DNA from: Bryum argenteum
Taxonomy: Eukaryota > Streptophyta > Bryopsida > Bryales > Bryaceae
Reading direction: 5' to 3'
Length of the DNA: 64,000 bases
Assembly (NCBI GenBank): GCA_037043015.1
Contig: CM073321.1
Span: forward strand, 28,075,010 to 28,139,009
Shown here piece after piece: positions 16,735 to 37,640 of this stretch (positions are counted from its first letter, which is position 1; each line of letters opens with the position of its first letter). Position numbers and translations under genes: made by a program. The notes beneath the pieces were generated by a model. That model saw nothing but the letters and a program-made list of their open reading frames with translations. It was not told where the DNA came from and made no database searches.

Positions 16735-17059
16735 GTACGTTCATGTTCCACAATGCCTTCTGGTTAGTGCCTTCGGCTAGTGCCTTTGTGGATTGTGATG
16801 ATGGACCGTCCCCGTTATTAATCCTCGATCGTGGTAGAGAGAATTGTTGGGAGAGAATGCACACACTGCTGCATTTCTGGTATGTGCCGAATTGCCCCTG
16901 GTCTGTTTGAGTTTGGAATCGTCGTTCTGGAGTGCCGATTTTTCTTTTTTCGTCCACGAAACTGTGAATTACAAAGCCTGAAGAGAATGTGATCTTTTTG
17001 GCTAGTACCTTCTGGTAAGTGCCTTCGGCTAGTGCTTTCTGGTTAGTGCCTTCGGCTAG
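16735..17059. repeat. left part of intron repeat field
   Basis: Contains copies of the unit 'CTTCGGCTAGTGCCT.TGTGGATTGTGATG' plus 'GATGGACCGTCCCCG' and a TTTCGTCCACGAAA element at 16949. The same units recur at 35160-37620, showing that the two stretches were once contiguous and were split by the 18-kb insertion. Confidence 0.75.
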
Positions 17060-17067
17060 GGCCTATG
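17060..17067. repeat. 8-bp target site duplication, left (GGCCTATG)
   Basis: Matches GGCCTGTG at 35152-35159 in 7 of 8 bases. An unoccupied equivalent of the site (GGCTAGTGCCTTTGTGGATT) is present in another copy of the host repeat near 16775. Confidence 0.8.
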
Positions 17068-17249
17068 CACGGATGTCAATCCGGACGTCTTTTGGGTTTT
17101 CTTGGTCGGACGGACGTCCGTCCGTCCGGACATCTCTCCAGGACCATCCGGACGTCCGTCCGGGGGGTAAATCGGAATTACTATGCATGTAGTAAATTTT
17201 TTAACCGTCAGATCGTATTGAAAGTCGCATCGTAGCCGTTCAAATAGTG

Positions 17250-17665
17250 TTGTGAGTGTAGGTGATTACCATTGGATTGAATCGAGCGGCCCAGGACCGT
17301 CCGATTGGCCTTGCCGACCGACCGGTCGACGGCGTTGGATCGGTCGCAGCCGACGGATCGGTCGCTTCATCGGCCCCAGGCCGTCCGATCGGTCGCGATT
17401 TCGGTCGGCCGTCGGATGGGGCGCAGTCGGCGTCGGCCGTCTGATTGGTCGCGGTCTCCGTCGGCCGTCCGATCGGTCGGATCGGCCGTCCGATCGGTCG
17501 GATCGGCCGCCGGTGATCGGTCGGGTCGGCCGGGCCGATCGGTCGGGCCGGTCGGCGCCGGCCGTCCGATCGGTTGGCGGATCGGTCGGGTCGGCCGCGG
17601 CTGATCGGTCGAGCCGGTCGGCCATCGGCCGTCCGATTTAGGTCGCCGGTCGGCCATGCGACCGC
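17250..17665 (+). repeat. GC-rich palindromic array upstream of kinase gene
   Basis: Dense runs of CCGATCGGTCGG, GGTCGGCCG and CGACCGGTCG; many units are self-complementary. It ends at the TATA box of the downstream gene. Apparent long ORFs on both strands here are artefacts of the repeat. Confidence 0.85.
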
Positions 17666-17668
17666 GGC

Positions 17669-17679
17669 CTATATAAGGC
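17669..17679 (+). promoter_or_regulatory. TATA box of kinase gene
   Basis: CTATATAAGG at the 3' edge of the GC array, about 165 bp upstream of ATG 17843, with C/T-rich sequence (CCTCCACTCTCCTCACTTC) where transcription would start. Confidence 0.65.
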
Positions 17680-17842
17680 CGACCGGTCCTCCACTCTCCT
17701 CACTTCTTTCCTTCTTTTTTAGGGTGCGGAGTGGCTGTAGATTGGAAATTTTTTTAATTTTCATCCACTGGCTCCTTATCCTGGGGAGGAAAGAAGTCTT
17801 TCCGTTTGTAAGGGGGGAGCTTTTGCTTTTTTTTTCACAAAG

Positions 17843-20066
17843 ATGCCCAAACATGGGGCTGGGGGCAGTGGGGGGAATCGAGGCCAGAGACCAAGGCCTG
17901 TTAGACATCTTGAGAAGTGGGAGCACCCATCCAATAAGTGCAAGAACTTTCTTTGGGAGAATGTAATCGTGCGATTTTATGAGGCTAACAGTCTTTCACG
18001 TTTGTTCAACAAATACGTGAGATACAAAGAGGAAGCTCAGGCCAAATTCAAGGACGACATGATGGACCTCATGATGGAAGCGCTCCAAGATCCGGTGTGG
18101 AGACCGGAGACCGATAAGCGTGGATTTACGGATTGGATGGAGGATACATTAATTGATGCTCTCTGGAACGCTGTCGACATATTGAAGAGGTACGAGAGAA
18201 CGATTCGAGCGGGTGATGAGGAGTTTAGGGATGTGGTATTGAGGGCGGAGGCTTTTCAACAAGCGATGAGGCCGTATTCCAAGAATCAAAACCGGTGCGG
18301 CTCCATAGGATGGTGGCACACGGATCAAGGAAGGTTAATGGAGCTGGGTCGCATGAATAATTTGATAGTAATTCCTGTCACGGCCCGTATCATCGAGCTT
18401 GAGAAGAGGACTCTTAGGGGAGGATACGTCACAATTTCCAAAGTTCACATAAGAGGGGTTGTGGCTATTGAAGAGTTTTGGGAATTTGCTGCCAAGACTC
18501 CCATCCATGTTGTGACACGACCAGACTTGGCTAAGATGGAGCATCAGAATGAGGCGTTTGCTGTGAGTATACAACATTCAAGTGTTATTTGTTTTATAGC
18601 CATTCATGCAAATAAATTCCAAGGCTATACGTATTGGTGGAATGGCGGCATGATTCGATCGATGTTGGCCCTTGATGCAAGATATGGAGATGATGTTCAT
18701 GGAGAGATCGGACTCTCACCTCATTCTGATGATGAGCTTATTCGAGCTTGGCAGTTGGTCCGGTTTCGCAAAAAACAAACAGAGCTTGCTTGAGCTTTAG
18801 TGCATATCATGTGTGAAGTCCACCGGTTGAACTACCTCCACAACGATGTGTCTCCAGATGTTGTCCTGGGTTAACGAGGGATGGAATGCTTTACGAGCTC
18901 AAGACACCGAAGATAACTTTTCTGTGATTTTTAGGCAATCGGTAAGAGGGCTGAGCGGTGCTCAGTTTAAGCCAGGGGGCAGGAGTTGACTTCGGTGGTA
19001 CCGGCTGAGATTCGTGGAATACAGAGACCACGGTTAATACTGATACCGTGGAGGTGAGGTGTAGGCACAGTGTCCTGCAGTCTGTATGTAGAAGTCCCGA
19101 AGCTCAGGCTGCCGAGTTCTACCGAGGCTATATCCCTAGCTCAGTGATTCTACAATGCAAACGAGGAAAACCGCGGAGACCCAGCAAAGCCAGAGACACC
19201 AGGGACATACAATCAAGGAGGGGTGTTAGGGTTTATCCGAGGCTGACTATGCAATCCTCAGCAGCAGTCGGAGTGAATGAGAGAGAGAGTTTCAGAATAC
19301 AGACATGGGAGAGGAAAGCGTCGGCTCTTGGCCTTCGTATTCAAAACATCAGATCCAAAATACATGTGAGTGTGTGTGCTCAGTGTATGACGAAACTATG
19401 CTTCTACGGTGACTACCCCAAGAAGGAGTCTCTCTCCTATTTTCTACTTCCTCTTATACTACGGCTGCCGCGGATATCCTTGAAACCGAACGGTGCCCTT
19501 ATCGTCTGCCGAGGCATCTGCAGTTAACTGCTGGTGCCTCCGCCAAAATTGCTGAGCTATCCCTGTTGCCGCTGTTGCTTCCGCTCTGGCCGCCGTGGTT
19601 ACCCGATGACGTCAGTCGGGTAACACCAGACAACATACTTCTTCACATCCCTCAAGATGAATCACGGGTGTATATTGGAGTATGTGATTGGGGGCTAACC
19701 ACGAGCATGGATGATAAAATGAGGTCCTTGTATACGTTCACAAAACCCCAAGAGAGAATTGATACTCTACAAGCACGATATTGGGTAGATCCTCGGGTGG
19801 CGTACTTGTACAAACGGAGTGATGACATTCACGTTATTCCCCTTCTTGATTGCGCTTCGAAGGAGTTTGCTACCCCACTAATAGCACAACGCATCCTCAA
19901 GAAGAGCATGTCGAAGGCCTACGAGAATTGCCAAAGTACAACGGGGCCTGACCGGTGGTGCAATCAAGACTTGGCAAATGCTTTTGACCAATACTTGGAG
20001 ATGGTCGCTGATGCAAAGTATACGCTGACCCACATTGTCAACCGCTTCATGGAATCATTCCACTGA
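17843..20066 (+). pseudogene. atypical protein kinase gene, interrupted by a solo LTR
   Basis: From ATG 17843 (MPKHGAGGSGG) a helical N-terminal region of about 160 residues precedes a kinase-like fold. It has a glycine-rich loop equivalent (RGGYVTISKVHIRG), FAAKT for the ATP-anchoring lysine, EHQNEAFA for helix C, and YWWNGG near the hinge. At 18836-18858 comes the catalytic loop start YLHNDVSPD; it is broken by a 767-bp insertion and resumes at 19626 as PDNILLH. The next block, VYIGVCDWG, stands for DFG. The C-lobe ends RFMESFH at 20066. An in-frame TGA at 18791 and the insertion make it a pseudogene as read. If intact it would be a Ser/Thr-type kinase with a DWG variant; substrate unknown. 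It is cargo of the hAT element. Confidence 0.65.
18859..19625. mobile_element. solo LTR (767 bp) with CCAGA duplication
   Basis: Begins TGTTGTCCTGGG and ends GTCGGGTAACA (TG...CA, with TGTT/AACA inverted ends). CCAGA at 18854-18858 is repeated at 19626-19630. Removing the insert and one CCAGA restores the kinase catalytic-loop reading frame exactly, which confirms both borders. A 480-bp frame inside (19048-19527) has no recognisable content. Confidence 0.85.
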
Positions 20067-20821
20067 CCGGTGCCAAATGATCATTATCGCACCAAGTATG
20101 ATTAGCAAATTAGTTATGCGCATTTCTTTTAGTACTTGCGGCTTTATTAGATTTTTAGATTCTTCATTGAAGTTCTCATGTAGATGTAGGCAAATTTTTT
20201 GTAGTCAAATGTATTACATGCCTTCTATATGTAGCGGCTTCAATTACATTCTTGTTTATATATACCTTGCAATGATTCTAATGAATGACTTCTTCTCCAT
20301 TGCTTGTTATTTTATTTTATTACTTCTTACCTTCAATAGAAATATCTCCAAATCTTCATAAACAATATTTGAGAATATATAATGAATTGTGGAACTTCTT
20401 CATTACGTCAACCTTGCGTAGTTGCGATATTAATGGTTTGTCCGAAGTCAAGTCAAGCATAATATGACTTTTCTTACATATGCCTTTTTTTGTATGAATT
20501 GATGAACATATTATATGTTAGGTGAGAGTGTGAGACTGTGAAAAAAGGCTTAAAGCCAAACAGAAGAAATTATTACCACCAAGTGAACTCATAGTAAAAA
20601 TACAAGACATTGCGATAAAATCCTTGAAATAACAAATTGCATAGTATATTAATGTATAATAATATAGTCCGATATTCGGATAATCCATTCGTAAACAAAA
20701 TATGGATTTCATTATCCTCAAAATTGGCCCCTAGCAAGGCGATAATAGTGTAGACATTATCCGTTGCAAAAAACAACATAACCTTCACTATAATGACACT
20801 ATGTATGATGATTTGTCATTC
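20067..20821. other. AT-rich spacer between convergent genes
   Basis: 3' flanks of the plus-strand kinase and minus-strand Tyr/Gly-rich gene. No gene seen. Confidence 0.5.
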
Positions 20822-21969
20822 TTAATCCGATTCTTCATCATCATGTTTACGACTTGGCGCAGCGCCGTAAGAAGGTGGTCCTCGAGAAGATTCTCCAAAC
20901 AAGTACGTTTGCCTAGTGTTTCTTTCGGCTTCAAGCTGTTCAATGTATTCCTGCTGACTTAGAAGTGTGGCTTGTTGCAGATCTCGTTGGTACCTCGCCT
21001 CTCGTCCTCAAGAGATAGTAAAGGTGCTGAAGGCAGGTCGTTACTTCCGTATGCATTCTGACCATATCCATAATTTGTGTAGCCAACAATGTCTGATCTT
21101 CTATTATATTGACCTCCATACTCGTATATTTCCTTCGGGTGTGATGGCCTACGGTACTCGGGACTTCCGAATGTTGTACCGTATTGGTTCCCACGATTGT
21201 ATGGGTTTATAGGATGAGTTGGGCTTGAGTTGCATTGAGCATTGGATCCGCTACCCTGCTCACCTCCTAAACCATGTGTACCTCCTGTATACATTGGAGA
21301 TGGGTAGTTCGAACTAGATCCACCTCTACCGTACTCGTGTTCGGCTCCGTACGTGTTTTGCTGATGAGGTGGCATATAACTCACCAGAGTACTGAATTGG
21401 TGGTTTTCATGGTAATACCCCTCACTTCCTGTGCCAAAGGATACTGGTGCTTGACGATCGTCATGGTTTGAATCTTGGTGAGTGCCCCCATATGCCCTTG
21501 GAGTTCCATGTTGTTGAAGTTGGGCATCCATATCAGCTGAACGTTCTGAATAAGTAGTATAGCAATCGCTTGGTCCCATCCAATTTGTGGGAATGAATCG
21601 GTTGCTGCGATCCAATAAATGCACGTTCAAACCTATCACAGTGGTCCAGTCAATGTCCTTGTGAAGGACTATTTCAGCCCACACCATGGCCATGGTAGAA
21701 TACAACATCAATTCTGGCCTTGTTTTCTTGATTCCAACCGCAATTGTGACTTCATGATATCTGTGCGCAAAATGGTCGCTCTTGCAACTCTTCACTGAGC
21801 CTTCGCGACGAGGACCATATTTCTCTGCTTCGTGCCGCGGCCATAACTTCATGATGTGGTACATCTTCACATACTTCTTGCACATGTTGCAATTCCAAAT
21901 GTTTGCCCTCTCCTCTCGCCAACCCGGCTCTGCAACACAGTTTGGGTCACTCCATGCTTCCCAATCCAT
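20822..21969 (-). CDS. protein with CKKYVKMYH domain and prion-like Tyr/Gly/Ser/Gln-rich tail
   Basis: The first ATG downstream of the minus-strand TATA box is at 21969 (MDWEAWSDPNC). Residues 1-140 contain WNCNMCKKYVKMYHIMKLWP, SDHFAHRYHEV and a helical MLYSTMAMVWAEIVLHKDID stretch; the same domain occurs in the gene at 27764. From about residue 150 the protein is low-complexity and rich in Tyr, Gly, Ser, Asn and Gln (YGGTHQDSNHDD, QNTYGAEHEYGRGGSSSNY, YGYGQNAYGSND), a prion-like composition. Near 20990 the frame shifts by two bases; the other frame continues RYQRDLQQATLLSQQEYIEQ to a TAA at 20822, so the C-terminus is a short coiled-coil-like helix and acidic end. The domain family is not one I can name; a transposon accessory protein or captured host gene are both possible. 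Confidence 0.5.
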
Positions 21970-22175
21970 TTTTGGAGGGTTGCCCTTTGGTCGTGGAGAC
22001 TTGGCCTCGCTCCTCGAACGTGAAAACTTCGGCGTAATTCCCAGCAGCGGCAAGTATGCACAGTGTGGGCGTGGGTGACCCACGCGGACTCTGAGTAACG
22101 CAGTCAATGCAGCTTTATCAAAAGCCGCAACGTACAGCCCGTTCACCAGAGTGAGGGACAATGAGCCCCTCCCCT

Positions 22176-22187
22176 CCTATTTATGCC
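22176..22187 (-). promoter_or_regulatory. TATA box of Tyr/Gly-rich gene
   Basis: On the minus strand GGCATAAATAGG, directly at the edge of the GC array and about 210 bp upstream of ATG 21969. Confidence 0.6.
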
Positions 22188-22495
22188 GACCGGGATCGGA
22201 CGCCATTGGCCAGTTGGCACTGGCCCTCCGATCCCGGCCGGCAGCCGTCAAATCGGCCATCCGGCGGCAGGCGACCGGCCAGTACGACCGATCGGGGCCG
22301 CCCGATGGCACGGCCGATCGGTCGATCGGGGCCGCCGATCTTGGCCGACCGGCGACCGGTCTGCCGACCGGCGACGGGTCCGCCGACCGACCTGGCGACC
22401 GGCGACCGGTTGGTCGACCGGCCTCGCGACTGGCGACCGGTCATGCGACCGGGCCGGCGACCGACCACGTCCCCCGGGCGACCGGTTGGTCGCTC
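22185..22495 (-). repeat. GC-rich palindromic array upstream of Tyr/Gly-rich gene
   Basis: CGACCGGCGACCGGT and CCGATCGGGGCCG-type units over about 300 bp, abutting the minus-strand TATA box. Same arrangement as at 17250, 27215 and 34815. Confidence 0.85.
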
Positions 22496-23220
22496 CTTCC
22501 GCGTCCCCCTTCCCCCTCCTCCTCTTGCCTCTCCCCAAAACTCCCCATTTGCACAACTTCGATGTCTACCCCGCGTTGCATACCTGCATTTTCAAAACTA
22601 CTATATTCAGCCTGTTTGGTCCACGTGGCGTCTAAATATGGACAGGGAATGTTCTGACAAGAGAATGTCGGGAATATCTTTTCGTCATAAACGGGAATGT
22701 TTTATGACAAAGATACTATTGGCTTTAAATAAATCTATAATAAGGGACTCTTTGCAAGAGGAGTGAAGGCCAACAAATCTCCAAGCCAATTCAGTCACTT
22801 TTTGAGTTATGTTGCCCAATTAGCTTTAATTGAACAATACATTTAACAATCAATTTAGTGGGGCCAATTTTCCGAGTCGTGAAGTCCTTTGGAGTTGAAG
22901 CCCATGAATGAAGGAGAGCCAAGGCCATGGGGCCAATTCTTATTATTAACTAGAGTCCATGTTTTTTATTTGTACACATTTATTTTTTATTTTTTATTTT
23001 TTTGAATTATTCTTCCCTAACACCTTAACAACCATGGCCACCATTTCGTCTTTTATTGTCACGGCCAAAAAATGTTTCATATTCAATTTCAAATGTTATG
23101 ATCTCGCATCTATTGATGATCCAACGGTTGAAGATTTCACACTACTACATATGGTAGTCTACTCAAGATCCTATGGTTGAAATTATAAACTATATCCAAA
23201 AATATTGGACATAGCCCCTT

Positions 23221-23507
23221 TGTAGTGAAACCACCTATTCTCGTACACTTAAGGAAAATTGAGGGAATCTATATACTTGGTGTGAGAAAGGAGTGGGTTA
23301 CTATTTTTCACGGATAGGAAATAGAAAAAGACAAGCTAACCCTATTTATGTGCTTTTTTAAAGCACACACATAAAGAAATACAAATTTTAGAAGGAGAAG
23401 CCTAAAGGCGGGCACCCTAAATATGTACGCATGAGGTACATGCAAGGGAGGTGAGATCTTTATAAAGGCAAGAATCTTTGCCTCCCGCCTTTAGGTGGTT
23501 TCACCAT
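23221..23507. mobile_element. possible MITE / foldback insert in copy A
   Basis: TAGTGAAACCACCTA at 23222 is mirrored by TAGGTGGTTTCACCATA near 23492, and CCTAAAGGCGGG at 23400 by CCCGCCTTTAGG near 23485. The stretch belongs to the extra sequence of copy A. No target duplication verified. Confidence 0.4.
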
Positions 23508-24454
23508 AGTTCATAGTGGTAAGTGCTAGTATTGCAAGCTCCCATGGATTCACATTCATTTCTTCTATCTCCCAACTTTTGTCAAAATTTATCCATTCTC
23601 ACTAGGAGATTTTGCCATGTTTTGGCCCCCATTCATGACTTGCCCCCTACTGTGTACCCTGAGGTGGCCCTAAATCCTCTCTGATTACATTCCATAAATT
23701 TAACCTATTCCTTGGTGAGAGTATATTGATGTCTAACATTGGAGAGATCCAAGTATATATGAAATGTAGGTGAGCATGTGTGAGCATTTACTTTTCATAA
23801 TTTTGGTCTTACTGAGTTTGTCAATATTTAGACTTTCTATTTGGGCCTTAACTTTTCCACATTGTATGGTCTATATTAATTGATGGGTATTTGGAAATTA
23901 CTCCATCGTTGTGTATCTAAATTAGTAGTACTTATTATAATAAACATTGTGCATAAACAATTAATTCTATTATTCGCTATTTTTTGTCTGACAACCTTCA
24001 ACTAACCTAGGAGTATATATATAATCTAGTACATATAATTAATTGTAGCATTATTCTTATTGTATGGATTTGAATAGTTACTTATTTCCCTCTTACAAAG
24101 GTAATCGAAATAAGTTTTCATTGTTACTATTTTGGCAATCATAAAATAAGAGAAATAAATAGGGAGACTAATAAATTTTAAAAAATATCCCGACCTATAA
24201 GTGTTTAACATATGGCAATAATGGCATCAACTTCTAAATTTTTAAGCATATTTGATATTGTACACGTATAGTACATTAGTACTAAGATTAGATGTTATAT
24301 AAAATTGATTATTCGTATATTATGATTGATTGATTTGAGAATAGAATATTTTGAAGAGCCATCACTTCTTCATTTACAGTATGTAATGGATACATTCTCT
24401 TGTGGATAAAATTTAAGTTCTTGGTTTTAGATGTATGAATTACTATGTAGGCCT

Positions 24455-24515
24455 CTAGGGTATAGGGTTTAGGGTATAGGGTTTAGAGTTTAGGGTTTAG
24501 GGTTTATGGTCTTGA
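24455..24515 (+). repeat. interstitial telomere-like repeats (TTTAGGG)
   Basis: About seven degenerate TTTAGGG / TATAGGG units. Copy B has a more diverged equivalent near 26325-26370, so the array predates the duplication or was seeded before it. Confidence 0.7.
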
Positions 24516-25217
24516 GGATTTGGGGTGGATTTCATTTTAATCCTAGTTTTTGTGTTCAAAGCTTTGCAAACACAATTGTATGTGGATGTAAAATAATGGA
24601 TTAATGTATGTATGGTTTAGTTCTCAATTATATTTTACATGGATACAAGTTGCACTTCTCTACATCGCATAGTTAATGTGTGCAAAATAATCTATTTTGT
24701 ATTTATCATTTTTGATTGAGGATGTTATTGACATGGAATAAATCACACATTTATTGCAAAGAATATATAGGTACAATATTCAACATCAACATACGAATTA
24801 TGATTCCAGAGTCTTCAATCTCATAGCCTATTTTTAACCAATATTGGAATAGAGTTACTATTGTAGGTCATGTGGCTCAGAGTTTAATTCATAGAGCCTC
24901 ATAGATTATAACGTATGAGTACCGAAGTAGTATTTGTACGAAACATCTTTGAATTCGTGAAGATCTATACTTTTATGGAGTCCACTCGAAATAGTTATGA
25001 ACTTAGAATTTAAAGTTCAGATGTATCCGTGAAAAAAGAATACTTAGCATTTCAGAAATCAACATAGGATTCCTTTTTTCATTGTGTAGTAATTACTGAA
25101 AATCGAGTAACAGAAATCTTTGAGGAATAAAAAAAGGATCCTATGCAATTTTATTAGATTTTAGTTATATATTTAAGAAAAGAAAAGTTTTAAAAAAAAA
25201 ATTAAAAAAGAACTGTA

Positions 25218-25290
25218 CAGCGGCCGCCCATATCGGTCGGCCGCCATCGGGCGGGCGTGCGACCGGCCCGGCGACCGGCGACCGGTCGGT
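25218..25290. repeat. short GC-rich palindromic array between duplication copies
   Basis: GCGGCCGCCC followed by CGGTCGGCCGCC and GCGACCGGCGACCGG units. Same kind as the promoter arrays but shorter and with no TATA box or gene attached; probably a by-product of the tandem duplication. Confidence 0.7.
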
Positions 25291-27215
25291 CGCTCCTTCC
25301 GCGTCCCCCCTTCCCCCTCCTCCTCTTACCTCTCCCCAACACTCCCCGTTTGCACAAGTTCGATCACTTCTCCGCGTTGCATACCTGCATTTTCAAAACT
25401 ACTATATTTAGCCTGTATGATCCACGTGGCGTCTAAATATGGACAGGGAATGTTCTGACAAGAGAATGTCGGGAATATCTCTTTGTCCCAAACGAGAATG
25501 TTTTATGACAAAGATACTCTCGGCTTTAAATAAATCCATAATAAGGGACTCTCTTCAAGGGGAGTTAAGGCGAGCAAATCTCCAAGCCAATACACTCACT
25601 TTTTGAGTTGTTGTGCCCAATTTGCTTGAATCGGAGTAAACATTTAACAATCAATATAGTGTGGTCAATTTTCTCATTTGTGAAGGCATTGGGAGTTGAT
25701 GCCCTTGTCTATAAGGAAAGAAAAGGCCATGGGGCCAATTCTTATTATAAGTTAGAGACCATGCTTTTGATTGTACACCTTAATTTATTTTTGTTAAAAT
25801 ATTCCTTCTTAACCCCTAAAGATCTATGGACACCAGTGTAGAGGTTTCCTATTTCGGGCAGCTTATATGAAGAGGTCAAAAGTAATAATTTTTTATTAAA
25901 TTTTTTCTAGGTGCTCCTTACACCGCAAAGTGCATGTGGTAAAATTTGCATATCCAAATTCCAACTTTACAACCTACATCTAGAATATTTAGGTCTGAAG
26001 TCCATTAGGGGAGTTAAATTTAGTCTTTGTTTGAAATTCTTTTTTGGAAATATGTTCATGAACAATTTACTACTTGAGTTCCAATGTGACCCAAGTCAAA
26101 ATGTTTGTCAATTTCACAAGGGTAGCCTTGAGAGATTACAAAAATAATCTTCACAATTTCTAGTAATTTCCGAATTAACTCTTCCTTCGATTGATTGTTT
26201 TGAAAATATAATATTTTAAATAGGCATCTCTTCTTCATTTAGAGTATCTAGTGGATAAAATCACTTGTCGACAGGATTTGTGGTTTATGGTTTAGGATGT
26301 ATGAATAACTCTTTAGGCCTCTATGGTACACGGTTTACGGATTACGGTTTAGGGTCTTAGGATTTTGGGATAGATTTCATTTTAATTCTAGTTTTGGTGA
26401 AGCAAAGCTTTGCAAACACCATTGTGTGTGGAAGGGAAATATTGGACTCGTGTATGTATGGTGTAGTTCTAAGTTATATATTAAATGGATAACAATTGTA
26501 GTACTGTACATCGCATACTTAATATGTGCAAAATAATCTATTTTGTATTTATCATTTTTGATGAAGATGTTATTGACATGGAATAAATCACACATTTATT
26601 GTAATAAATATACTTGTACAATATTGAACATTGAACATTCAACATAGGATTTAGGATGATAAAATCTTCAATCTCATAGCCTATTTTTCACCAAATGACG
26701 CTGTTCCAAAATAAGTGTCCTACATTAAAATGAGGATACTCCAATTGACATTCTCAACCATGCAATATTGGAATAGAGTTACTGTTGTAGGTCATGTGGT
26801 TCAAAGTTTGATTCACGAAGCCAATGGTCAATTAATTTACAAAAGGAAAATAGAGAAGAAAGATATTGATTCGAAACCAAATGAATGCCTTATGTTTGAA
26901 ACATCTATGAATTTGTGAAGATTTACACTTTAAAGAGTCCACTCAAAATAGTTATGAACTTAAAATTTAGAGTTAAGATGTATCCGTGAAAAAATAATAT
27001 ATTGCATTTCAGAAATCAACATAGGATTCCTTTTTTCAGTGTGTAATAATCACTGAGAATCAAATAACCAAAATCTTTGCGAAATAAAAAAGGATCCTAT
27101 GCAATTTTGTAAGATCTCTGAACTCTATATATATATATATATATATTATTATTATTATTATTATTTTTTTATTATTTTTTAAAAAAATTGAAAAAAAAAT
27201 TTAAAAAAAAACCCC
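25290..27215 (+). repeat. tandem segmental duplication, copy B
   Basis: Starts CGCTCCTTCCGCGTCCCC and ends at GCGGCCGCCCAGATCGG, parallel to copy A. It finishes with (TA)n and (ATT)n runs at 27127-27180. No gene. Confidence 0.8.
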
Positions 27216-27540
27216 AGCGGCCGCCCAGATCGGTTGGCCGCCTTGGTCGACTGGCATCGGTTGGTCGACATCGAGCGGCCACGATCGGCCGGCCACATCG
27301 GTCGGCCGATCGTGGCCGGTTGGCGGCGACCGGTTGGCAGCGACCGGCCGGCGCGAACGACCGGCCACGATTGGCTGGCCCCGATCGGTTGACCGGATCG
27401 ACCGGCGCGAACGACCGGCCACGATTGGCTAGCCCCGATCGGTCGACCGGATCGACCGGCCAAGATCAGTCGGCCAGACCGGCCGGCCAGCATCGGTCGC
27501 GGCCGTGATTGGCCGAGCGACCGGTCCGTGCGGCCGGTCT
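27215..27540 (+). repeat. GC-rich palindromic array upstream of RING gene
   Basis: CGATCGGTTGGCCG, CGACCGGCCACGAT and related units; a unit of about 54 bp (GCGCGAACGACCGGCCACGA start) is tandemly repeated around 27350-27460. Abuts the TATA box at 27561. Confidence 0.85.
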
Positions 27541-27560
27541 CTAGGGTTGAGAAGGAGGGG

Positions 27561-27571
27561 GGATAAAAGGC
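27561..27571 (+). promoter_or_regulatory. TATA box of RING gene
   Basis: GGATAAAAGGC followed by a C/T-rich initiator-like stretch (TTTTCCCTCACTTCTCC), as at the kinase gene. ATG 27764 is about 190 bp downstream. Confidence 0.6.
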
Positions 27572-27763
27572 CTTTGGGGCCTCATTTTCCCTCACTTCTC
27601 CTTGTATTCATCCATCTCAACTAAGCTGCAACCGGGGGCATTAGCTTCTTGTGTGCTGCATTTGTGGTGGCGGGGGGAAGTCAGCGTGATACTTGCGGCT
27701 GCTGCATCGAATTTTTGCATACTTGGGATATCTTCGGGGTATTTTAAATACTCCCTATTCTTC

Positions 27764-29386
27764 ATGGCGACGGATATCGATAACACGAACATGGAAGCTG
27801 ATTCTGAACAGACCTTGAGGTCACCTGCGATAGAAAACACAAACGCAGGATTGGTGGGGACCGAGTTGGTTTTACATGAGACACCGTTAAAGAGAGTGAA
27901 ACCAAAAGGAGCGAGACATGAGTTGCACTATGAGATCTTGGATAATGAGGCCATCAAAGCTGAGAGCGGTTGGGCCAATGAAACGGAGGAATACTGGAGA
28001 ATGGCGACGTGCAAGAAATATGTGAAGATGTATCACATTGGGAAACTTTGGCCTCGAGAATGTCACAAAGTTAATACCAATAATTTTACTTGCAACCCTC
28101 AAACATGCAAGGATGATCACTTCCTTCATCGTGCTGAAGAAGTGTGGGTGGCATTGTTTGGAACTCGTCCCAAGAGCAAGGGTTATTTTTCCTATACGTT
28201 CTTGAGCATGGTGTATGCTGAGCTTATATTGAAGCGCAAGGTGAACTGGAGCACATTCACGGCGAGTAGTGCATATCCTCTTCGAATCGGGAGAAATCAG
28301 AAGGATATCCCTGATATGTTTGATCCAGAATCAAACTCTACAAAGGCCTTATTGCAGCACTTGAGGAAGAAAACTCATGAGACGGCGGTGAAGGAATCTC
28401 CTCCAACAACCACGACACATCAGGAGGATGGAAGGAATATGGTTGCCACGGATGCCCCAATCGTAGAACCGACTATAACTGATAGGCTTGAAGGTGCAAA
28501 CGTAGTTGAAGAACCTCATGTAACCTCGGTACCAACATCAGAGGAGGTAGGGCCAAGTGAACCATGGGAAACCAGAGCACCAACTTATGCCATGGATGAC
28601 ATGGATCTCGATTCGGGTGCGGCGCCAAAGTTCGAGAGGTATATGCGTTATCAAGTACCGGATAACACATTGGATGAGTAGATGAAAATAGCAAAAAGTT
28701 TGGCAGATTGGTGCAATGAGGTAGATAAAGAGGAGGGTTTGCCAGGGAATCATTGGGGAGATACTACGGGTGAAGGGATACTTAATCTAGGGTTCAACTT
28801 GAAGATGGGGTCAGAAATACTTGCGGATATGGCTCCTCGTTTTGTGGAGATGGCTCATAGTTTTGCAGGTGTCATGCCCAACATTCTACTAGCTGCCACA
28901 AATTTTGAGGCACTCGTAGATCGGTTTGATCCTCTACTGAAGGACCGAGTGAAGACTGAGCTAATCATTGTGAAACTGGAGAAACAACAGCAAATTACCC
29001 AACGTCTCCTTGACGAGTTTTATAGGGAATTGCGGTTGTTTGGCCAAGGTTCTGCTAGCGAGTATGTGGCAAAGTACCAAGAAGCAATGCGCCAAAGGGA
29101 TGCGGTAGAAGACTTAGAAGATAACCGATTCAACTTTGTTCCATCACAGAATGACACTCAGGGGGCTTCATGTAGTCATGTTGTTCCAGAATGTGATGCG
29201 GGTAGTAAAAATGATGGTAAAGAGGATGGTGAAAAGGATGGTAATAAAGATAAGGGGAAGACCATTATCGGGACTTCTGATAGTCTTTTTCTTTCACAAA
29301 TTGATGCGGGTGGTAAAGAGGATGGTGAAGAAGATAATGGACAAGCCTATATCAGAGGTTTATCTCCTCTTAGAGAGGTTGTGTAG
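27764..29386 (+). pseudogene. N-terminal half of RING-H2 gene with CKKYVKMYH domain
   Basis: ATG 27764 (MATDIDNTNMEAD). Residues about 65-190 carry the domain shared with the minus-strand gene at 20822: WANETEEYWRMATCKKYVKM, YHIGKLWPRE, CKDDHFLHRAEEVWVAL and FLSMVYAELILKRKVNW. The 'AELILKRKVNW' helix recalls a segment of plant transposon-associated proteins, but I cannot name the family. A disordered acidic linker leads to an in-frame TAG at 28681, immediately followed by ATG in the same frame (MKIAKSLADWCNEVDKEE). A helical region and low-complexity repeats (KNDGKEDGEKDGNKDKG) then end at 29386, where the frame shifts. Read with the following features this is one long gene, now broken. Confidence 0.55.
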
Positions 29387-29451
29387 AGGATGGTAAAGAA
29401 GATAAGAGAAAAACCATTATCGAAATAGACGATGATGACGATGATGGAATT

Positions 29452-31104
29452 CCGGGGGAATTGAAGTTAATATCAGAAAAGGAGATAGATCAGGTACAGA
29501 TTGAGCGACAACGAGCATGGGCGATGAAGTTCGCGGCAGTGAAGAAGGAGAGAGATGTTACAGCTGCGAAATTGGAGGAGGAAGCAAAAGCATGCTCAAT
29601 GAAGTTGGAGGCTACAAGTAAAGAGAGAGATGAGGCAGTCGCTGAATCGGAGGCATTACGGAAAACCTTCAAAACAGTAGATTCTACAGAGGCAACAATC
29701 CACCTACGCATACTACCATGGTTGATGTGTTCATCGACTTCAAGATAGGAGGAGCTTGGTTTCGAGGGCAAAAGAAGATCTGAAATCTATTGCTTTTACA
29801 TCAAAAGAATCACGTGAAGTTGTAGATGCTTCATTGGAGAAGTTCTGTACGAACAGATCGAAAAACGATATGACCCCGTAGAGGTCACTTTTTGGGGGGA
29901 TATTGAAGAGATGATGGAGCGTACAAACTACTCTAAGATGGGACGAAACAATGATGTTGATTGGACTATAGAGATAGAGGAAGGATGAGCTCCGTATAGT
30001 AGATTCTCATCGCACCTACAAGAGTCAGCTCGCATTGTAATCAGCACATGCGACCCTCCTTCCGCAATACTTAAAGACAAATGTGCGGTGTGCCTACATA
30101 ATTTTGGTCCAGAGGGCGCATACACGTTGGACCAATGTGGCCATACCTTCCATGTTACTTGCATATGCCGATATGCGATGACAAAATCGGTATGTCTGGT
30201 ATGTCGCCCCCCATTTAGCACGAGATTCTACGAGATGATGGGCATACGAGATCTTATGCCACCAGGGCACGAGTTCAACCGATGGAATCTTCCATTGGAT
30301 CAATACGCAAAGAAATTTCTAAACTACTCTGATTGGGGAAATGCACTTAACTAGAGTACGTCCGAATCAAAACACCAACTAGCCATTCAATTTGGTGGGG
30401 ATCATGATCAGTTATTTTGAATGACACGAGATTACGAAATAGAGATAAGGGCGAGGAATATTGAAGGTGATGAGCAACGAGAGTTGTTTTGTCGTAATTT
30501 TGGAGGGCATTGGAGCGTCGAACACAACCGTTTCTTTCGATTTCCTCCGAAGAGAGTGGAAAAGAGAGAAGATGGTTCGTGGCACGAAATAACCGATTCA
30601 ACCAGCTTTGGTGAGGAGTACAAGAAGTACGATCATACTCCAATTGGAAGAGCTGTGGTACTTGCGAAATTGGAGGAGGCCGCAATATACCGGACTTCGA
30701 TACCGGAAAATTCTTTTGAAGATGTGGAGGTCTCTTATTGGGATGCGGTGAAGAAGTTTGATGTGCGTATCGATGACGCCATTTCATTCTGGAGAGAATG
30801 TCTTTTAAACCCAAATGACACACAACTTCTATTATTGGATGAGTTCGAAGGTGTTGTACAGGATGTCGTTCCAAAGATCCAGAATGCCATGGAAATCATA
30901 CGTAACAAACAAGTGGATCCTAGCAAAAAGTGGAAGAGACAATTGGGCGAAGATGGGGAGGATAGTTGGCAGGCGGAGATGAGAGGCGAAATCGCAGCCG
31001 TGGATCGAGAGTATGAAGAGGGCAGTCGAATTGCCCGTCCAAGTCAAAGACCGCGTACTCGTAGTGTAGCTCAGATTGGCCAATCGGATGGATCTTCAGT
31101 TTGA
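29452..31104 (+). pseudogene. C-terminal half of RING-H2 gene
   Basis: A coiled coil at 29461-29690 (IERQRAWAMKFAAVKKERDV ... KLEEEAKAC ... SKERDEAVAESEALRK) leads, through frame changes near 29740-29850, to a RING-H2 finger at 30082-30204: CAVC, CGHTFHVTC, CLVC, spacing C-x2-C-x13/14-C-x-H-x2-H-x2-C-x11-C-x2-C. This predicts an E3 ubiquitin ligase that recruits an E2. The same frame runs through an in-frame TAG (about 30352) and TGA (about 30418) into a 220-residue C-terminal region (CRNFGGHWSVEHNRFFRFPP, AISFWRECLLNP) ending TGA 31104. No further known domain. It lies in the hAT element, downstream of the CKKYVKMYH-domain half. Confidence 0.55.
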
Positions 31105-31140
31105 AGTTAGAACGGATGTTGGACCTTGATTGCACGTATA

Positions 31141-31313
<173 letters not shown>

Positions 31314-31637
31314 TTTTTTTAGGTTGTATGGCTGTTGTTTTAAAAATGATGAAAATGCCACCATTGTTCCATGGGGCCTTATTTTTGAAGTAAAGGGTTA
31401 CAATCTTTTTGATTTAATGTGCATTTCTTCTGTATGCTTGAGAGTGAAGACTATCGTACGACAAGTATGTAAAAATATATGTAATATTTTTCAACACATT
31501 AAATGTAGTCATGTAGACAATAGATCTCCAAATGCATTTGGAGTATAACAATAAAGTACTACAGTAAACTATAGCTACAATTTCTATAATAAGTATAAGT
31601 CCTATAAACCTATACTACATAAAGATGCCAAATTCAA

Positions 31638-34540
31638 CTACTCATCAGGACCAGAGGATTGCTCATAATCGCTATCTCCCTTCACTTCAGCTCCACTAGA
31701 CCCCGTAGGATCATATTCATAATCGCTTGGAACCTCCTCTTTGATCTTGGGTTTATTCTCTGGACATTGTATAATCCCATACTTATGCCAAGTATCAAAT
31801 TCGGGGAGATCAACAGGGATCTTCGGTTTTTTAGGCGGAACAATTGGAACCGTTGCAGATTTTCGTTTATGCGACTTGGAAGTGCCAAGCATGTGCTGTA
31901 ACCCCGTGGCAGTACGAGGAACATTGGCATTCTTTAAATACCTGCCCAACGGTACATCAGAGTCACTAGAGATGCTCCCATATTTGGCTCTTGAAAGGGA
32001 TACTAAACCCTTAGACGATTTCTCCAAGGTTGTCGTAACCCTTGTAGTAGAGGGTTGAAATAAAGCGCGGGGAGTAGCACATTGTAAAGATACTTGATCC
32101 TTACTACCGGATGCGATATTCTCCGCGACCGGATCAGAGCTCATAGTGTCCGCAGTAGTATTGCACGCAGTGGTCTTCACATCTATCGCCTCCTTTTCCA
32201 ACCGTAAACGAGTAGCGATAACAAGTAGGACGTTATTCGATTTGTCCATGCCGCCTTGTGTCATTAACCGTGCAAACGGCTGCTCATCATCTAGATCATC
32301 CGCTGAAAGACCATGAGCGATAAAATCACCATTAGCATCATGAACATTTGGAGCATCTTCATCATTTGAAGCGGGGAAGAAAGTCATATCATCGTCTTCA
32401 TCACCAAATTCAAAAACATCATTGTCATCAGACTCTGATTTGTCCTCGACAGCTTCCACATCATTCTCATGTACTTGGTCTTCCTCTAAATCCAAGTTCT
32501 CTCTATACCACCGCCCATCATCACTCAACTTATCATTCGCGAGCAATTTCGAGTTGGAATATATGTAGACCAAGTCATCAGCTCTGCCCGATAGTAACCA
32601 ATTCCGTTTCTTGTCGTGAACATAAGAGTAGCTACTCCAGTTGCGTTCGCAAGCCGACGAGGACACGGTCTGTGCTAGTATTTGCTTTGCAATTGGAGAG
32701 AGGAGCTTAGCACAAGCACCTTCAAACTCCCACCATGCATGTGGAGCTAGTTTTTGAGTATTAGGCTCCAGCATGTCATGGAATGGTGGACCCCTCACTC
32801 AAAACGCAAGAAATTCACTCACCACGTCTGCGTAATCCTCCGCGGGACATAATTTTTGTAAAACACGCTTGCAAGCTATTGTAAGATCGGGATCGTCAGC
32901 TAACTCTTGGTCGTGTAGTAAATAAGGATTTAAAAGTGCAGCCGCGCCATGTAAATCCGTTGTCATGAGCCGTTTCCGATGGTAAAACTCCTCTTTTGCG
33001 GTGGCCACCTCAAGTGGTTCCAATGAGATGGGCGGTGCGTGCAAAGTATGGACATGTCTCTCAAGATCACGCATGATATGCCAAGCCTTGCCCGTACTAG
33101 GAGCCTTGCCGTCGAATTCTCTCAGAGCGTACACTACGGGGGCAACCATATCCCGTAGTCTTTTGCATTGCTCCCAAAAGTCATCGCTCAACACCACCTT
33201 CTTGACCTTACAGGAGAATATAAGCTTATCTCTAGCAGATACCGTCTTCTTCGAGGCATAGGCTGTGAACATAGGGTCGACAACAACTTGCTCCAATGAT
33301 TCCTTGACCTCCAACAAGCAATCTATCATTATGAATTGACTAGCAAATCTTGTTTTCCCGGGCATCAGTAGGCTGAATTTCGCCTTGTGTTTACGAAACA
33401 CAGCTAGGGGCATTTGTCGCCTCTTGATAAACTTGACCATTCTCTTCGCCATGACCAAAGTATTCGCCATCCATCCAGCCTTTCCCCAATCCTCCAACAA
33501 CAAGTCCATTGCATGTGTCGCACACCCTTGCATGAAAATGTGCGGATATTTCTCAAGGATTATTCTTGAGGCATTGAGCATTACAGAAGCATTGTCTGTG
33601 CATACTTGAACAATGTTCTCTGATCCAACTTGTTCTATGTACTTCAACATGAGAGTTGACATGTACATCACTGTTTTTTCTATGCCAGTAGTATCCACAG
33701 CACCAAGAAAAAGCTCTCCAGCTTGAGTCACAAGCATCGCATTCACCAAAGGGCGACTAGTCACAGATGACCATCCATCCATAGTCAAAGTTCCTCCAAA
33801 CTTCCGAAGGCTCTCCGAGAGTCTACTATCTAGTTTCTTTTGTAACTTCGTCTTTACTTCTCCTAACAACCTTGTCCGAATTTCATGGTAAGATGGTGGA
33901 ACATAGGATTTTTGAAATCCCGCAGTCTTCATCACGGCAGCTTTGAACGCATCATTCCGGGCTACTGAGAATGGTATATTTGCTTCATAAAAAATTTCGC
34001 CCAGAGTTTATCCAACTCCCGCCTATCCGCTTCTGCAAAAGTAGCTTCAATTGAAGATTGCTTCGTTTGCTTCATAGATCCAAACAACGGGCGAGTATCC
34101 CTTATTCCCCTCATAAGCATGGAAGAAGCAGAGGTTGACCCTACCAAAAGATTTGCTGAATTCATGGGGGTGCCTTGCGAGGACCCTACACAAGAGTCAC
34201 TCCTAGGGGTTTCAGGAATGTCATGTTTTGAAGCACTTGGAACGTCCGTGGATGGAGTGAGAGAACATTCACCGAGAAATAGTTCCAATTTTCCGTTATA
34301 TGGAGGGAACTCCCCACCACATCTTAAAAATAATTGCCTAATTTCCCTAGGCAGCTTTGGGCAAAGGGCAGAACTCGAATCCCTATGTCCAGGAATCTTC
34401 TCGTACCCATAATGACTCAAATTCCGACTCTTCTTCTTAGAAACAATTACATGACATAGTGAGCACTGTAGGAAGGACCCAGACGCTTTGCCTTCCTTCT
34501 CGATGTCTCTAAACCAAGGCTCATATGGAGCAGGGCCCAT
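31638..34540 (-). pseudogene. hAT transposase (BED-like, DUF659, hAT C-terminal domain), damaged
   Basis: Minus strand from ATG 34540. Residues 1-60 hold a zinc-finger-like module (FLQCSLCHVIVSKKKSRNLS, then H), then a disordered stretch. The central region has TLTMDGWSSVTSRP (first Asp), IVQVCTDNASVMLNA (second Asp) and HAMDLLLEDWG, typical of DUF659/hAT. The C-terminal part has TVSSSACERNWSSYS (the Glu plus dimerisation helix) and an acidic tail. Defects: a 1-nt change in a T-run near 33965 shifts the frame before the conserved FYEANIPF block, and an in-frame TGA lies at about 32799. The gene reads inward from the right TIR and probably mobilised this element. Downstream of a GC array and minus-strand TATA box like the cargo genes. 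Confidence 0.85.
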
Positions 34541-34740
34541 TTTGATAAATAGGACGCCTCAAAGTCATAAACAGTGGTGGGACCGTGACGGGGAAAAAAA
34601 TGGCAAGAGTTCCTTATGGAAATCCTCACTTCTGAACTCAATACCTACCAAGCAATGTACATATAAAATGAATTATGCAGCTCAAAGCCCTTGGAGAGTG
34701 TTCAAAATTCGGAAGTGAAATGAGACTCAATGTCTCTTCT

Positions 34741-34750
34741 CTTATATACC
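34741..34750 (-). promoter_or_regulatory. TATA box of hAT transposase gene
   Basis: Minus strand GGTATATAAG, about 190 bp upstream of ATG 34540 and about 70 bp from the GC array. Confidence 0.6.
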
Positions 34751-34814
34751 ATCCAACTCTGAATATGATCGTTGCAATTTGAAATTGAAATGCTCCTAAA
34801 CCGTTGGATGCTCA

Positions 34815-35035
34815 AAGGGGCCATCTGGCCATAGGCGGTCGCCGGATGCGAGGGCCGGTCGCAATGGCCGACGGCCGGTTGCCCGGGCCGACGGCCGGTT
34901 GCCCGGGCCGACGGCCGGTCGCCTAGGCTGACGGCCGGACCGACGGCCGGTCGCCCGCGGTCGACGGCCGGTCGCCCTGGCCAGCCGACCGGTCGGTCGG
35001 GCCGACGACGAGCTCGGGGACTGGTCGACGGGGTG
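34815..35035 (-). repeat. GC-rich palindromic array upstream of hAT transposase
   Basis: Tandem units of about 20 bp (GCCGACGGCCGGTTGCCCGG and variants) repeated about six times, then CGACCGGTCGGTCGGG. Lies between the right TIR and the transposase TATA box, so it doubles as subterminal repeat and upstream promoter element. Confidence 0.85.
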
Positions 35036-35151
35036 GTTCGACCAATGAACGCACCCCGTTGGTCATTTACCCTTAGTAAAACGACCAGAATCTCTAAGTC
35101 ACGGACTGTCCCCGGACCCCTGCCGGATGTCCGGACGCTGTGACATCCCTG

Positions 35152-35159
35152 GGCCTGTG
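35152..35159. repeat. 8-bp target site duplication, right (GGCCTGTG)
   Basis: Pairs with 17060-17067; one mismatch. The host repeat continues immediately with TGGATTGTGATGATGGACCG. Confidence 0.8.
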
Positions 35160-37640
35160 TGGATTGTGATGATGGACCGTCCCCATTTTTAATCTTTGAT
35201 CATGCTTGGGAGAATTGTTGGGACAGAATGCACTCACTCCTACATTTATGGTCTGCGCCAAATTGCCGATGGTCTGTCTCGCGGTTTTGGAGTGCCGATT
35301 TTTCTTCTTTCGTCTACGAAACCGTCAATTTTTAAGTACGAAGAGAATGAGATTTCTTTGGCTAGTGTCTTCTGGTTAGTGCCTTCGGCTAGTGCGTGTG
35401 TGGATTGTGATGATGGACCATCCCCGTTTTTTAATCCTTGATCGTGCTTGAGAGAATTGTTGGGATGGAATGCACACACTGTTGCATTTCTGGTTTGTGC
35501 CGAATTGCCGGTAGTCTGTCTAAGGTAATAGAGCTGCTCTTGAATCTAGAATTGGAGAGTCTTCAGAACAATCCGATCCATGACAATATCACTACAAGCT
35601 ACATACAGTGTGATCGATTGGAGGAAAAACAGGAGGCAGACTCTGCCACTTTCGCTGTTATTCTCTGAATAATTAGCTAATTAAGATGCTAGCTAGCTGA
35701 TGAGAAGCAGAGAAGTTGGATCGGCACGAGTTCGAAACGAGAAGGTCACGTACATATTGAGCGAGGACGCTTGTATTGATCGAATCTTTTGAGTCAGAAG
35801 TTGCACTGTAGGTGGGGCCTCATTAAGTTTAAGCTTCGAAGGATCGGACCGCGACTATCACGTCATCAGAAGTGGGCACCGTCTTGATCGAAGAACTAAC
35901 TTGCTGTATCGAACTTCTTCATCATCTTCGCTCGGCTAATGATACGATAGTTCGAAAGAATTGTGAATTTTGCTGCTGTACTATTTGCTCTCGGAATCAG
36001 CTTTTTGAGTGCCGTCTAAGCCACTTTCGTCAACGAAACCATCGTTTCTTGGCCTCCGACATGCTCGAATCCGGTACTGACCCTACTACTGGCCTTGGAT
36101 TATCGTTCTGCTAAGGATTTGGAGCAGGCCCTTCGGGTCCTCAACAACACATGCTGCTGCCTCTGCCTCTTTTGACTGTGCTAATGGACCGAATTCTGTT
36201 TTTGAGTGTAGTTTACGACGGTTTCGTCGACGAATCTGTCCTTTCTTGAGCTCTGCATTTCTTTGCCTGCTATCTAAATGGATTGTGCTATGGACAGTCA
36301 TTGTGTGGGATCGTCGTTTTCGACTGATCCTACCTAGAGTCTCAAGTTTTTTTTCTGCTGCTGTCTCTGTGGATTGTGATGATGGACCGTCCCCGAATTG
36401 AAAACTCGCTCGTGCTACTCAACTGCTTGTTGGGTCTATCATTTTGTGAGCTTCGAGCATGGCATTTCTGTGGATGCTTCCTTACTCAATTGTGCAGATT
36501 GACTTTCCGCGTTTGAATCCTCGTTTATGAGTGTCGTCTTCTCTACGTTCGTCAACGAAACTGACAATTTCTAAGCACAACAAGAATGGGTTTTCTGTGG
36601 CTAGTGCCTTTTTGGATTGTGTTGATGGAGTGTCCACGTTTGGAATCCTCTTTTTTGAGGGCAGTCTATGCCACTTTCGGCGACGAAACTGTCAGGTGTG
36701 AAGCTCCGACAGGCACGAATCCAATACTGACCCTAATACTGGCCCTGGAATATCGATCTGGTTTGGACTTGTAGTAGGCCCATTCGGTTCTTCATCACCC
36801 GTTGCTGATGCCTCCGTAGATTGTGAGGATGGACCGTCCCCGATGTGAATACTCGTTCGTGCTTGAGAGAATTGTTGGTTCAACAGCAGATGCTGCTGCC
36901 TCTGCCATGGCGGATTGTGCTGATGGACCGAACCCCGTTTTTGAGTGTGGTCTATGACTGTTTTGTCGACGAAACTGTCATTTCTCGAGCTCTGCACTTC
37001 TTTGTCTGCTGCATAGGTGGATTGTGCTGATGAACTGTCATCGTGAGGGGTCATGAATCTCGTGAATCTCGTGAATCATCTTGTGTCGCTGCATTTGTGA
37101 CAAGCTCACGAATCGATATGCCATATGCTGCTGTCTGTTTGGATTGTGCTGCTCGATTGTCCTCTTTTAGAATCCTTGTTTTTAAGTGTGAAATGCAGAA
37201 TGCAGAACTGATCAACAAGTAGACATTAGATACATTTGTTGACAAATTTGCTCAGACCGTGGAAGATATAGAATTTAGAGAATCTCAAGTTGTGGCAAAT
37301 AAAAAATTAAGCCAAAGTAATTCATGGAATTTGCTTTGCTAAGATGTAAATTTCGTAGACGAAATTGTTCTTTCCTAGCCTTGACTTGGACTTTGCAGGT
37401 TGTCAATTCCATTGCTATGCTCTGTTTGCTCACAGTAGGACGTTGAGGGGTCCGTATTGTTTTTAAATGGGGTTTCACACTAGGTCCAGAGTTGATATTT
37501 TGTTTTGCAACTTTATCACTAAAGTGATGACTCTTATTTATTTTTGGTGTTTTACGTGGAATGAAGTGTGATAGAGAAGAGTTAAAATTTGTTTAGGTCT
37601 TTGACACATTCGTTAACGAAAGTGCTACCCCAAGACTTTG
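35160..37640 (+). repeat. intron repeat field with TTTCGTCGACGAAA palindromes
   Basis: About ten degenerate copies of a unit containing GGATTGTGATGATGGACCG, a variable spacer and TTTCGTCGACGAAACTGTCA. The palindrome core occurs near 35309, 36025, 36222, 36548, 36674, 36961, 37351 and 37609 (plus 16949 to the left of the insertion), with central dinucleotide variation. No coding sequence. It is the right part of the intron that starts at 16735. Confidence 0.75.

Follow-up and report, generated by a model that had tools for sequence, protein, structure and literature searches.

A probable giant hAT transposon family carrying kinase-like, prion-like and RING-H2 genes in Bryum argenteum

Within a 64,000-nucleotide stretch of the Bryum argenteum genome (assembly GCA_037043015.1, contig CM073321.1, positions 28,075,010 to 28,139,009; hereafter the window), the segment at 17068-35151 very probably belongs, as a decayed copy, to a family of giant hAT transposons, each moving whole by cut-and-paste at a length of ~17-18 kb. 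An earlier note on this DNA had read the segment as a giant hAT element with extra genes, and this is supported by collinear copies elsewhere in the genome, by their target duplications and by their gene content. Besides the transposase gene (T), the element contains three genes, here called D, E and F, which recur with T in a fixed order across copies. The ends and genes of the window copy are as follows (positions in the window; copy E, one of the full copies, is described below).

17060..17067, no strand: left target-site copy GGCCTATG (sequence inspection)
17068..17078, plus strand: left terminal inverted repeat CACGGATGTCA, family form CAGGGATGTCA (sequence comparison)
17843..20105, plus strand: gene D, kinase-like, ~490 amino acids in intact relatives (3' end approximate, from copy E)
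20959..22161, minus strand: gene E, a Cys/His domain and an N/Q/Y/G-rich (prion-like) tail (open reading frame translation)
27764..31104, plus strand: gene F, an N-terminal domain in common with E, a RING-H2 finger and a C-terminal region (open reading frames, Pfam)
31638..34540, minus strand: gene T, hAT transposase (DUF659, Dimer_Tnp_hAT), in three frames here (Pfam)
35141..35151, minus strand: right terminal inverted repeat CAGGGATGTCA (sequence comparison)
35152..35159, no strand: right target-site copy GGCCTGTG (sequence inspection)

Ends, insertion site and transposase

The inverted ends proposed by the earlier note were confirmed in the sequence. The 8-bp duplication it described is also present, although in the window copy it is not perfect, with GGCCTATG and GGCCTGTG identical at 7/8 positions. 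Once the segment is removed, the host repeat is continuous, as had been claimed: the flanks joined by a single target copy can be aligned over the joining point with the repeat copy from ~16754 (236 columns, 80.5% identity) and with that from 35360 (161 columns, 85.7% identity). Related copies of this host repeat were seen at 16193-16349, 16754-17035, 35153-35519 and 35993-37052.

The 11-mer of the inverted end is weak evidence when taken alone, with 109 matches in the 258.8-Mb genome vs 58 for the reversed control. The whole ends, however, are strong evidence. They were probed with the first 253 bp (plus seven flanking bases) and the last 611 bp (plus eight flanking bases), scoring the best 40 of 277 first-look candidates for the left end and the best 40 of 350 for the right, window included. 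On the left, 37 of the 39 non-self scored places had a match starting no more than four bases from the inverted-repeat edge; on the right this held for 25/39, the remaining right-end places starting up to ~45 bases further inward. In 30 of the 40 scored loci for each end, the terminal repeat was found at the edge with at most two mismatches in 29/30 left and 29/30 right loci, and the exact CAGGGATGTCA in 25/30 and 23/30, respectively, which indicates that the left end of the window copy carries one changed base. Chance ends were therefore rejected as an explanation, the whole ends being strongly matched genome-wide.

The short terminal inverted repeats start with CA.GG, the terminal consensus type of hAT elements, taken here in part from the earlier note. 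Both ends could be placed in eight copies (the window, six other main-family copies and one of a sister family described below), and the target duplication could be checked in seven of these, being 8 bp long with 8/8 identity in four and 7/8 in three, the window among the latter. Repeated motifs also occur near both ends, CCGGAC lying within 400 bp of an end in 6/7 cases in the window, 7/10 in copy A, 4/7 in copy E and 9/10 in copy K.

Gene T reads inward from the right end. Its product matched the hAT C-terminal dimerisation domain (PF05699; 1.5e-10 in the window, 1e-6 in the sister family) and DUF659 (PF04937; 1.1e-35 and 1.1e-36), all above cut-off. An N-terminal BED zinc finger is common, but not universal, in hAT transposases; no Pfam match to it was obtained at 0.1 in window 33962-34540 or in the N-terminus of the 972-amino-acid sister protein, and a CxxC...H pattern was noticed by eye only. 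The stretches MDGWSS, CTDNAS and CERNWSS were likewise picked out by eye, as candidates for the RNase-H-like DDE catalytic residues.

Other copies and a sister family

A search for other genomic copies with the same ends, which had been suggested as a check, found both ends on one ~17-kb unit with the same interior. Copy A (17,033 bp, contig C4) and copy E (17,088 bp, contig C1, which is the contig of the window) have perfect target duplications, GTAAGGGG and GTCCACAC, and their main blocks align collinearly to the window at 85–95% identity. Copy K (19,465 bp, contig C11) contains additional sequence in its transposase region, and its flanks AAAAATGG/AAAAATGC agree at 7/8 positions. Two further pairs are known from their ends: a 27.2-kb copy on contig C2 with GTTTCGAG at both sides, and an end pair ~51.7 kb apart on C4 with flanks GGTGTGCT/GGTGTGGT. 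With two interior-gene probes, 40 loci were scored for each (the best 40 of 309 candidates each), and the full matches outside the window were 91–97% and 93–97% identical.

We also observed that a right end on C4 near 20.33 Mb (L052) and a left end on C4 near 5.26 Mb (L010), separated by 15 Mb, have the same 8-mer, GGTGTGCT, next to them; this may be due to chance among many pairs, or to rearrangement.

Gene order was followed genome-wide with protein matches, one per scored locus with second fragments left out, for the best 106 of 1052 candidates for D, the best 104 of 1477 for E and the best 56 of 1869 for F. The 98 scored T loci comprised 81 at at least 73% identity, taken as the main family, and 17 that were only 65–67% identical to the 430-amino-acid query. 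D was followed downstream by E in the expected orientation at 54 of the 106 scored D loci, F by T at 32/56 scored F loci, and D by T at 31/106 scored D loci; the corresponding opposite-orientation controls gave 0, 0 and 1. As only the best-scored loci are listed, a missing partner is no evidence of absence. D, E, F and the transposase gene thus recur in a fixed order across copies.

The more distant T matches led to the sister family. One of its copies, on C1, has an intact 972-amino-acid transposase frame, 54–56% identical to the main-family proteins over most of its length, and gene F adjoins it in the same orientation as in the main family. The right end of this copy pointed to the target copy GTCCACGT, and a genome pattern search for GTCCACGT plus the inverted repeat gave one exact place, 18.3 kb upstream and in the right orientation, and three further places with one mismatch. 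The sister element is accordingly 18.3 kb long with an exact target duplication and four genes in the main-family order, D (42–64% identical in the main pieces) and E (31–49%) being found in the 5 kb inside its left end. Across the genome, 28 of 37 scored sister transposases had a sister kinase gene of matching orientation 12–25 kb upstream, and none had one in the opposite orientation. These 37 were taken from 47 scored sister T loci, leaving out ten at 54–61%; the best 53 of 150 scored sister kinase matches gave 25/37, and adding nine later matches of at least 75% identity gave 28/37. A previous reading, in which sister transposases had no extra genes (0/17 with D, E or F in order; opposite-orientation counts of 2/106 for D and 2/104 for E), was wrong: the sister genes were outside the matches listed, and reading one sister copy showed them.

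Since all four genes occur in the sister family too, in unchanged order, the four-gene layout predates the divergence of the two families. This bears on the wording of the earlier note, which had called the extra genes cargo transported by the element. They are indeed carried, but they are not recently transported host genes, as D, E and F are common to a diverged sister family and are therefore better called resident accessory genes. Judged by these sequence comparisons, they are resident genes of the element and not recent passengers.

The earlier note had named two findings that would make the segment a nest: ends that belong to different short elements, or interior genes flanked by inverted repeats and target duplications of their own. 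The full copies instead carry both ends and a collinear interior, and copies E and A have no consistent internal end pair. A composite origin, with a short hAT invaded by gene-bearing elements or two hAT ends flanking host DNA as a macrotransposon, can draw on the nested insertion in the window copy (see below), the insertions in copy K, the end pair ~51.7 kb apart and the macrotransposons with Ac/Ds ends presented in the material on these elements in PMC3260210. It is contradicted for the whole unit, however, by full copies with matching target duplications, by an interior and gene order that stay the same where flanks and duplications differ between copies, and by the layout of the sister family. 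Over 5-, 8- and 9-bp settings, six internal inverted-repeat/target-like pairs were found in copies E and A; these sit in CCGACC-rich arrays and differ between the two copies, and none was found in a single shuffle of each copy at the same settings. We therefore rejected this explanation and regard it as very improbable. Segmental duplication of a host locus could be suggested by the many scored copies on one contig (71 of the 106 scored D loci are on C1), but the homology mostly ends sharply at the inverted repeats, and the flanking 8-mers match within a copy and differ between copies; it was rejected on these grounds, with hardly any likelihood left to it. The segment is in all likelihood one decayed copy of a multi-copy hAT family, as its sequence and those of its relatives indicate.

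Contig C1 makes up 17% of the assembly yet holds those 71 D loci (p about 6e-30), and also 81 of the 104 scored E, 57 of the 81 main-family T and 20 of the 37 sister T loci. This contig could represent a chromosome that is rich in repeats or does not recombine.

The accessory genes and their possible role

The kinase gene, prion-like gene and RING-H2 gene named by the earlier note are all present in the element. Gene D is kinase-like, with catalytic activity predicted from motifs: a catalytic-loop Asp/Asn and an Asp-x-Gly were found as HNDVSPENILLH and CDWG in the main family and as HNDISPDNILLH and CDWG in the sister family. The protein of the C2 copy matched phosphorylase kinase in the PDB (2.7e-5), and its catalytic loop aligns with the loop of that enzyme. 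Gene F is predicted to encode a RING-H2 protein, and a ubiquitin-ligase role is a prediction from this. Its finger, inside an open stretch at ~29989-30351 of the window, matched zf-RING_2 (PF13639; 6.7e-9, with 36.3 bits in copy A and 30.1 bits in copy E against a cut-off of 27.3), and RNF24 was matched in the PDB (1.6e-6). Gene E has an N/Q/Y/G-rich low-complexity tail, recognised by eye in both families, and its best PDB match had an E-value of 0.92. In NCBIfam, D gave two kinase matches far below cut-off, and the E, F and T proteins gave none.

E and the N-terminus of F have a common domain (35% identity), in which C35, H43, C67, H71 and H74 are among the positions invariant in the three sequences compared; two of the three extra genes are therefore paralogues. 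No family for this domain was found in Pfam, NCBIfam or PDB (best PDB E-value 0.76), and a structure model from two window sequences was unusable (mean predicted local distance difference test score 34.9), so that no fold is claimed. Between E and F there are duplicated blocks, 22450-23043 with 25252-25835 at 84% and 24324-25245 with 26189-27242 at 77-83%, which may go back to the duplication from which the two genes arose.

Each of the four genes has a similar CGGTCG/CGACCG-rich array upstream (delimited by motif count, no strand).

17338..17637: array upstream of D
22344..22466: array upstream of E
27255..27499: array upstream of F
34849..35007: array upstream of T

In the element, 53 of the 60 CGGTCG/CGACCG hexamers lie within 600 bp upstream of the gene starts (D 18, E 15, F 11, T 9), and the other 45.9 kb of the window contain 13. 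Copies A, E and K have the clusters at the same places, and the sister element has them upstream of D and T and weakly of F, where the upstream region is only partly covered. A fifth cluster, at ~25168–25467, adjoins a duplicated block. The similarity of the arrays above all four genes suggests that they could have a common regulatory role.

The ratio of nonsynonymous to synonymous substitution rates (dN/dS) between the main and sister families was 0.22 for D, 0.45 for E, 0.34 for F and 0.16 for T, and the lowest of 200 neutral simulations at the same divergence was 0.46, 0.41, 0.51 and 0.50, respectively. As their values lie under the simulation minimum, D, F and T change less at the amino-acid level than under neutrality. 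Within-family ratios (0.29–0.77, from tblastn alignments of single decayed copies) are inflated by frameshifts and were not used. Nonsynonymous (N) and synonymous (S) changes were counted separately, in nucleotide alignments of 30 loci for each end, of which 28 on the left and 27 on the right gave data. Changes found in single loci were near neutral (116 N : 55 S in D, 93:38 in T), and those in at least two loci were short of amino-acid changes (40 N : 34 S in D, 19:22 in T), departing from expectation with p=0.0008 for D and p=0.0006 for T; the contrast of shared with singleton changes in T gave p=0.005. Stops in T were five singletons, with none shared by two or by three or more loci; in D there were eight singletons and none shared by three or more. 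This is the pattern expected if copies decay after insertion and the mobile lineages keep D as they keep T. Open frames of the element genes do exist in other copies among the scored protein matches, and at 18 of the 106 scored kinase loci the match spans 379 or more of the 389 residues with no in-frame stop.

The transposase would bind both ends and excise the whole unit, which would be reinserted through 8-bp staggered cuts, the way in which hAT enzymes insert. D, E and F could be helpers that the element retains, their most likely role being to tune the transposase or to blunt host silencing: D might phosphorylate the transposase, E could act in assembly or DNA binding and F in ubiquitin tagging, and the similar arrays upstream could drive the expression of all three together with the transposase. 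A helper role, in which the genes aid spread through transposase modification or weaker host silencing, seems the most economical reading. That they form a long-standing kinase/prion-like/RING-H2 module for post-translational control of the transposase, or for disarming host silencing, is put forward tentatively, at somewhat less than even chances; no module of this kind is known to us from any cut-and-paste DNA transposon.

Several points weigh against these readings. Transposition, expression and protein function are all deduced from sequence. The Pfam Pkinase match of D (C2-copy protein, 2.8e-5) has 24.1 bits, below the curated cut-off of 31.7, and the sister protein has 24.9. The ratio for E falls within its simulated range (0.41-0.89), so E is not clearly constrained, and the dN/dS alignments come from tblastn and are biased to similar residues. 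For D, the contrast of shared with singleton changes is weak (p=0.044), and three of its stops are shared by two loci. Finally, the sister family was read directly in a single copy, in two pieces that leave out its middle 5.8 kb.

Some of these points suit another explanation, namely that the 17-18-kb hAT is real and D, E and F were captured and ride along without serving it. The functions of the three genes are deduced, E is not clearly constrained, and most scored copies carry stops or truncations. However, D, E and F are all found again in the sister family, D and F have ratios below the neutral simulations, and, as in the transposase, older changes in D look constrained and younger ones neutral. 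Passive passengers are therefore disfavoured by the conservation of D and F, and least so for E; overall we consider them unlikely.

Relation to known elements and condition of the window copy

Two-gene plant DNA transposons (En/Spm, MuDR, PIF/Harbinger) have a transposase and a helper gene in one inverted-repeat unit, but they belong to other superfamilies and have other target-duplication lengths than hAT, and we know of no kinase or RING gene in them. The element resembles the maize hAT Ac/Ds, as treated in the relevant part of PMC3260210, in its 8-bp target duplication, 11-bp inverted ends, hAT transposase and repeated motifs near the ends. It differs from Ac, given there as 4.6 kb with one 807-amino-acid transposase, in being 17-18 kb with three more conserved genes; the same source, in its passage on the subject, calls gene-fragment capture rare for hAT. 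Like the medaka hATs Tol1 and Tol2, it has inverted ends and a transposase and would move by cut-and-paste, but these are 4.4 and 4.7 kb and are described as the conventional form in an account (PMC10175614, the part on these elements) that also covers the giant Teratorn (piggyBac + herpesvirus, medaka) and the fungal Starships, which likewise have extra genes. Teratorn has a piggyBac-like enzyme and Starships a tyrosine-recombinase-like DUF3435 protein, and both have other sizes and gene sets. The family is therefore hAT by target duplication, ends and transposase, and departs in size and gene number from the compact canonical form of ~4-5 kb with one transposase gene.

No giant multi-gene hAT was found in the open-access literature; subscription papers and repeat databases were outside this search and may hold an earlier description. 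A term search for the word hAT gave nothing in the searchable text of a review of giant eukaryotic transposons (PMC6431247). If our reading is correct, hAT machinery can sustain large multi-gene units, here of 17–18 kb with three accessory genes in two diverged families. The question of helper proteins in DNA transposons would also become directly testable, as the kinase, prion-like and RING proteins are separable.

The window copy itself is decayed. An in-frame stop ends the first frame of gene D at 18793, and the gene is split by an insertion.

18859..19625, no strand: 767-bp insertion in gene D, with TG...CA ends and the 5-bp repeat CCAGA on both sides

This insertion is not in copies A, E and K, and by its sequence it is probably a solo long terminal repeat that arrived later than the element. 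Gene F is broken by at least one in-frame stop (28679-28681), and gene T is split into three separate frames. About eight copies of TAGGGTT, which we take to be the plant-type telomere repeat, lie inside the element between E and F at 24456-24510. A run of ~87 TA dinucleotides is located between F and T (31137-31311), and the alignments of copies A and E break there. Outside the element, the minus-strand reading frames at 10178-13587 look, by eye, like those of a MULE-type transposase or a FAR1-like protein.

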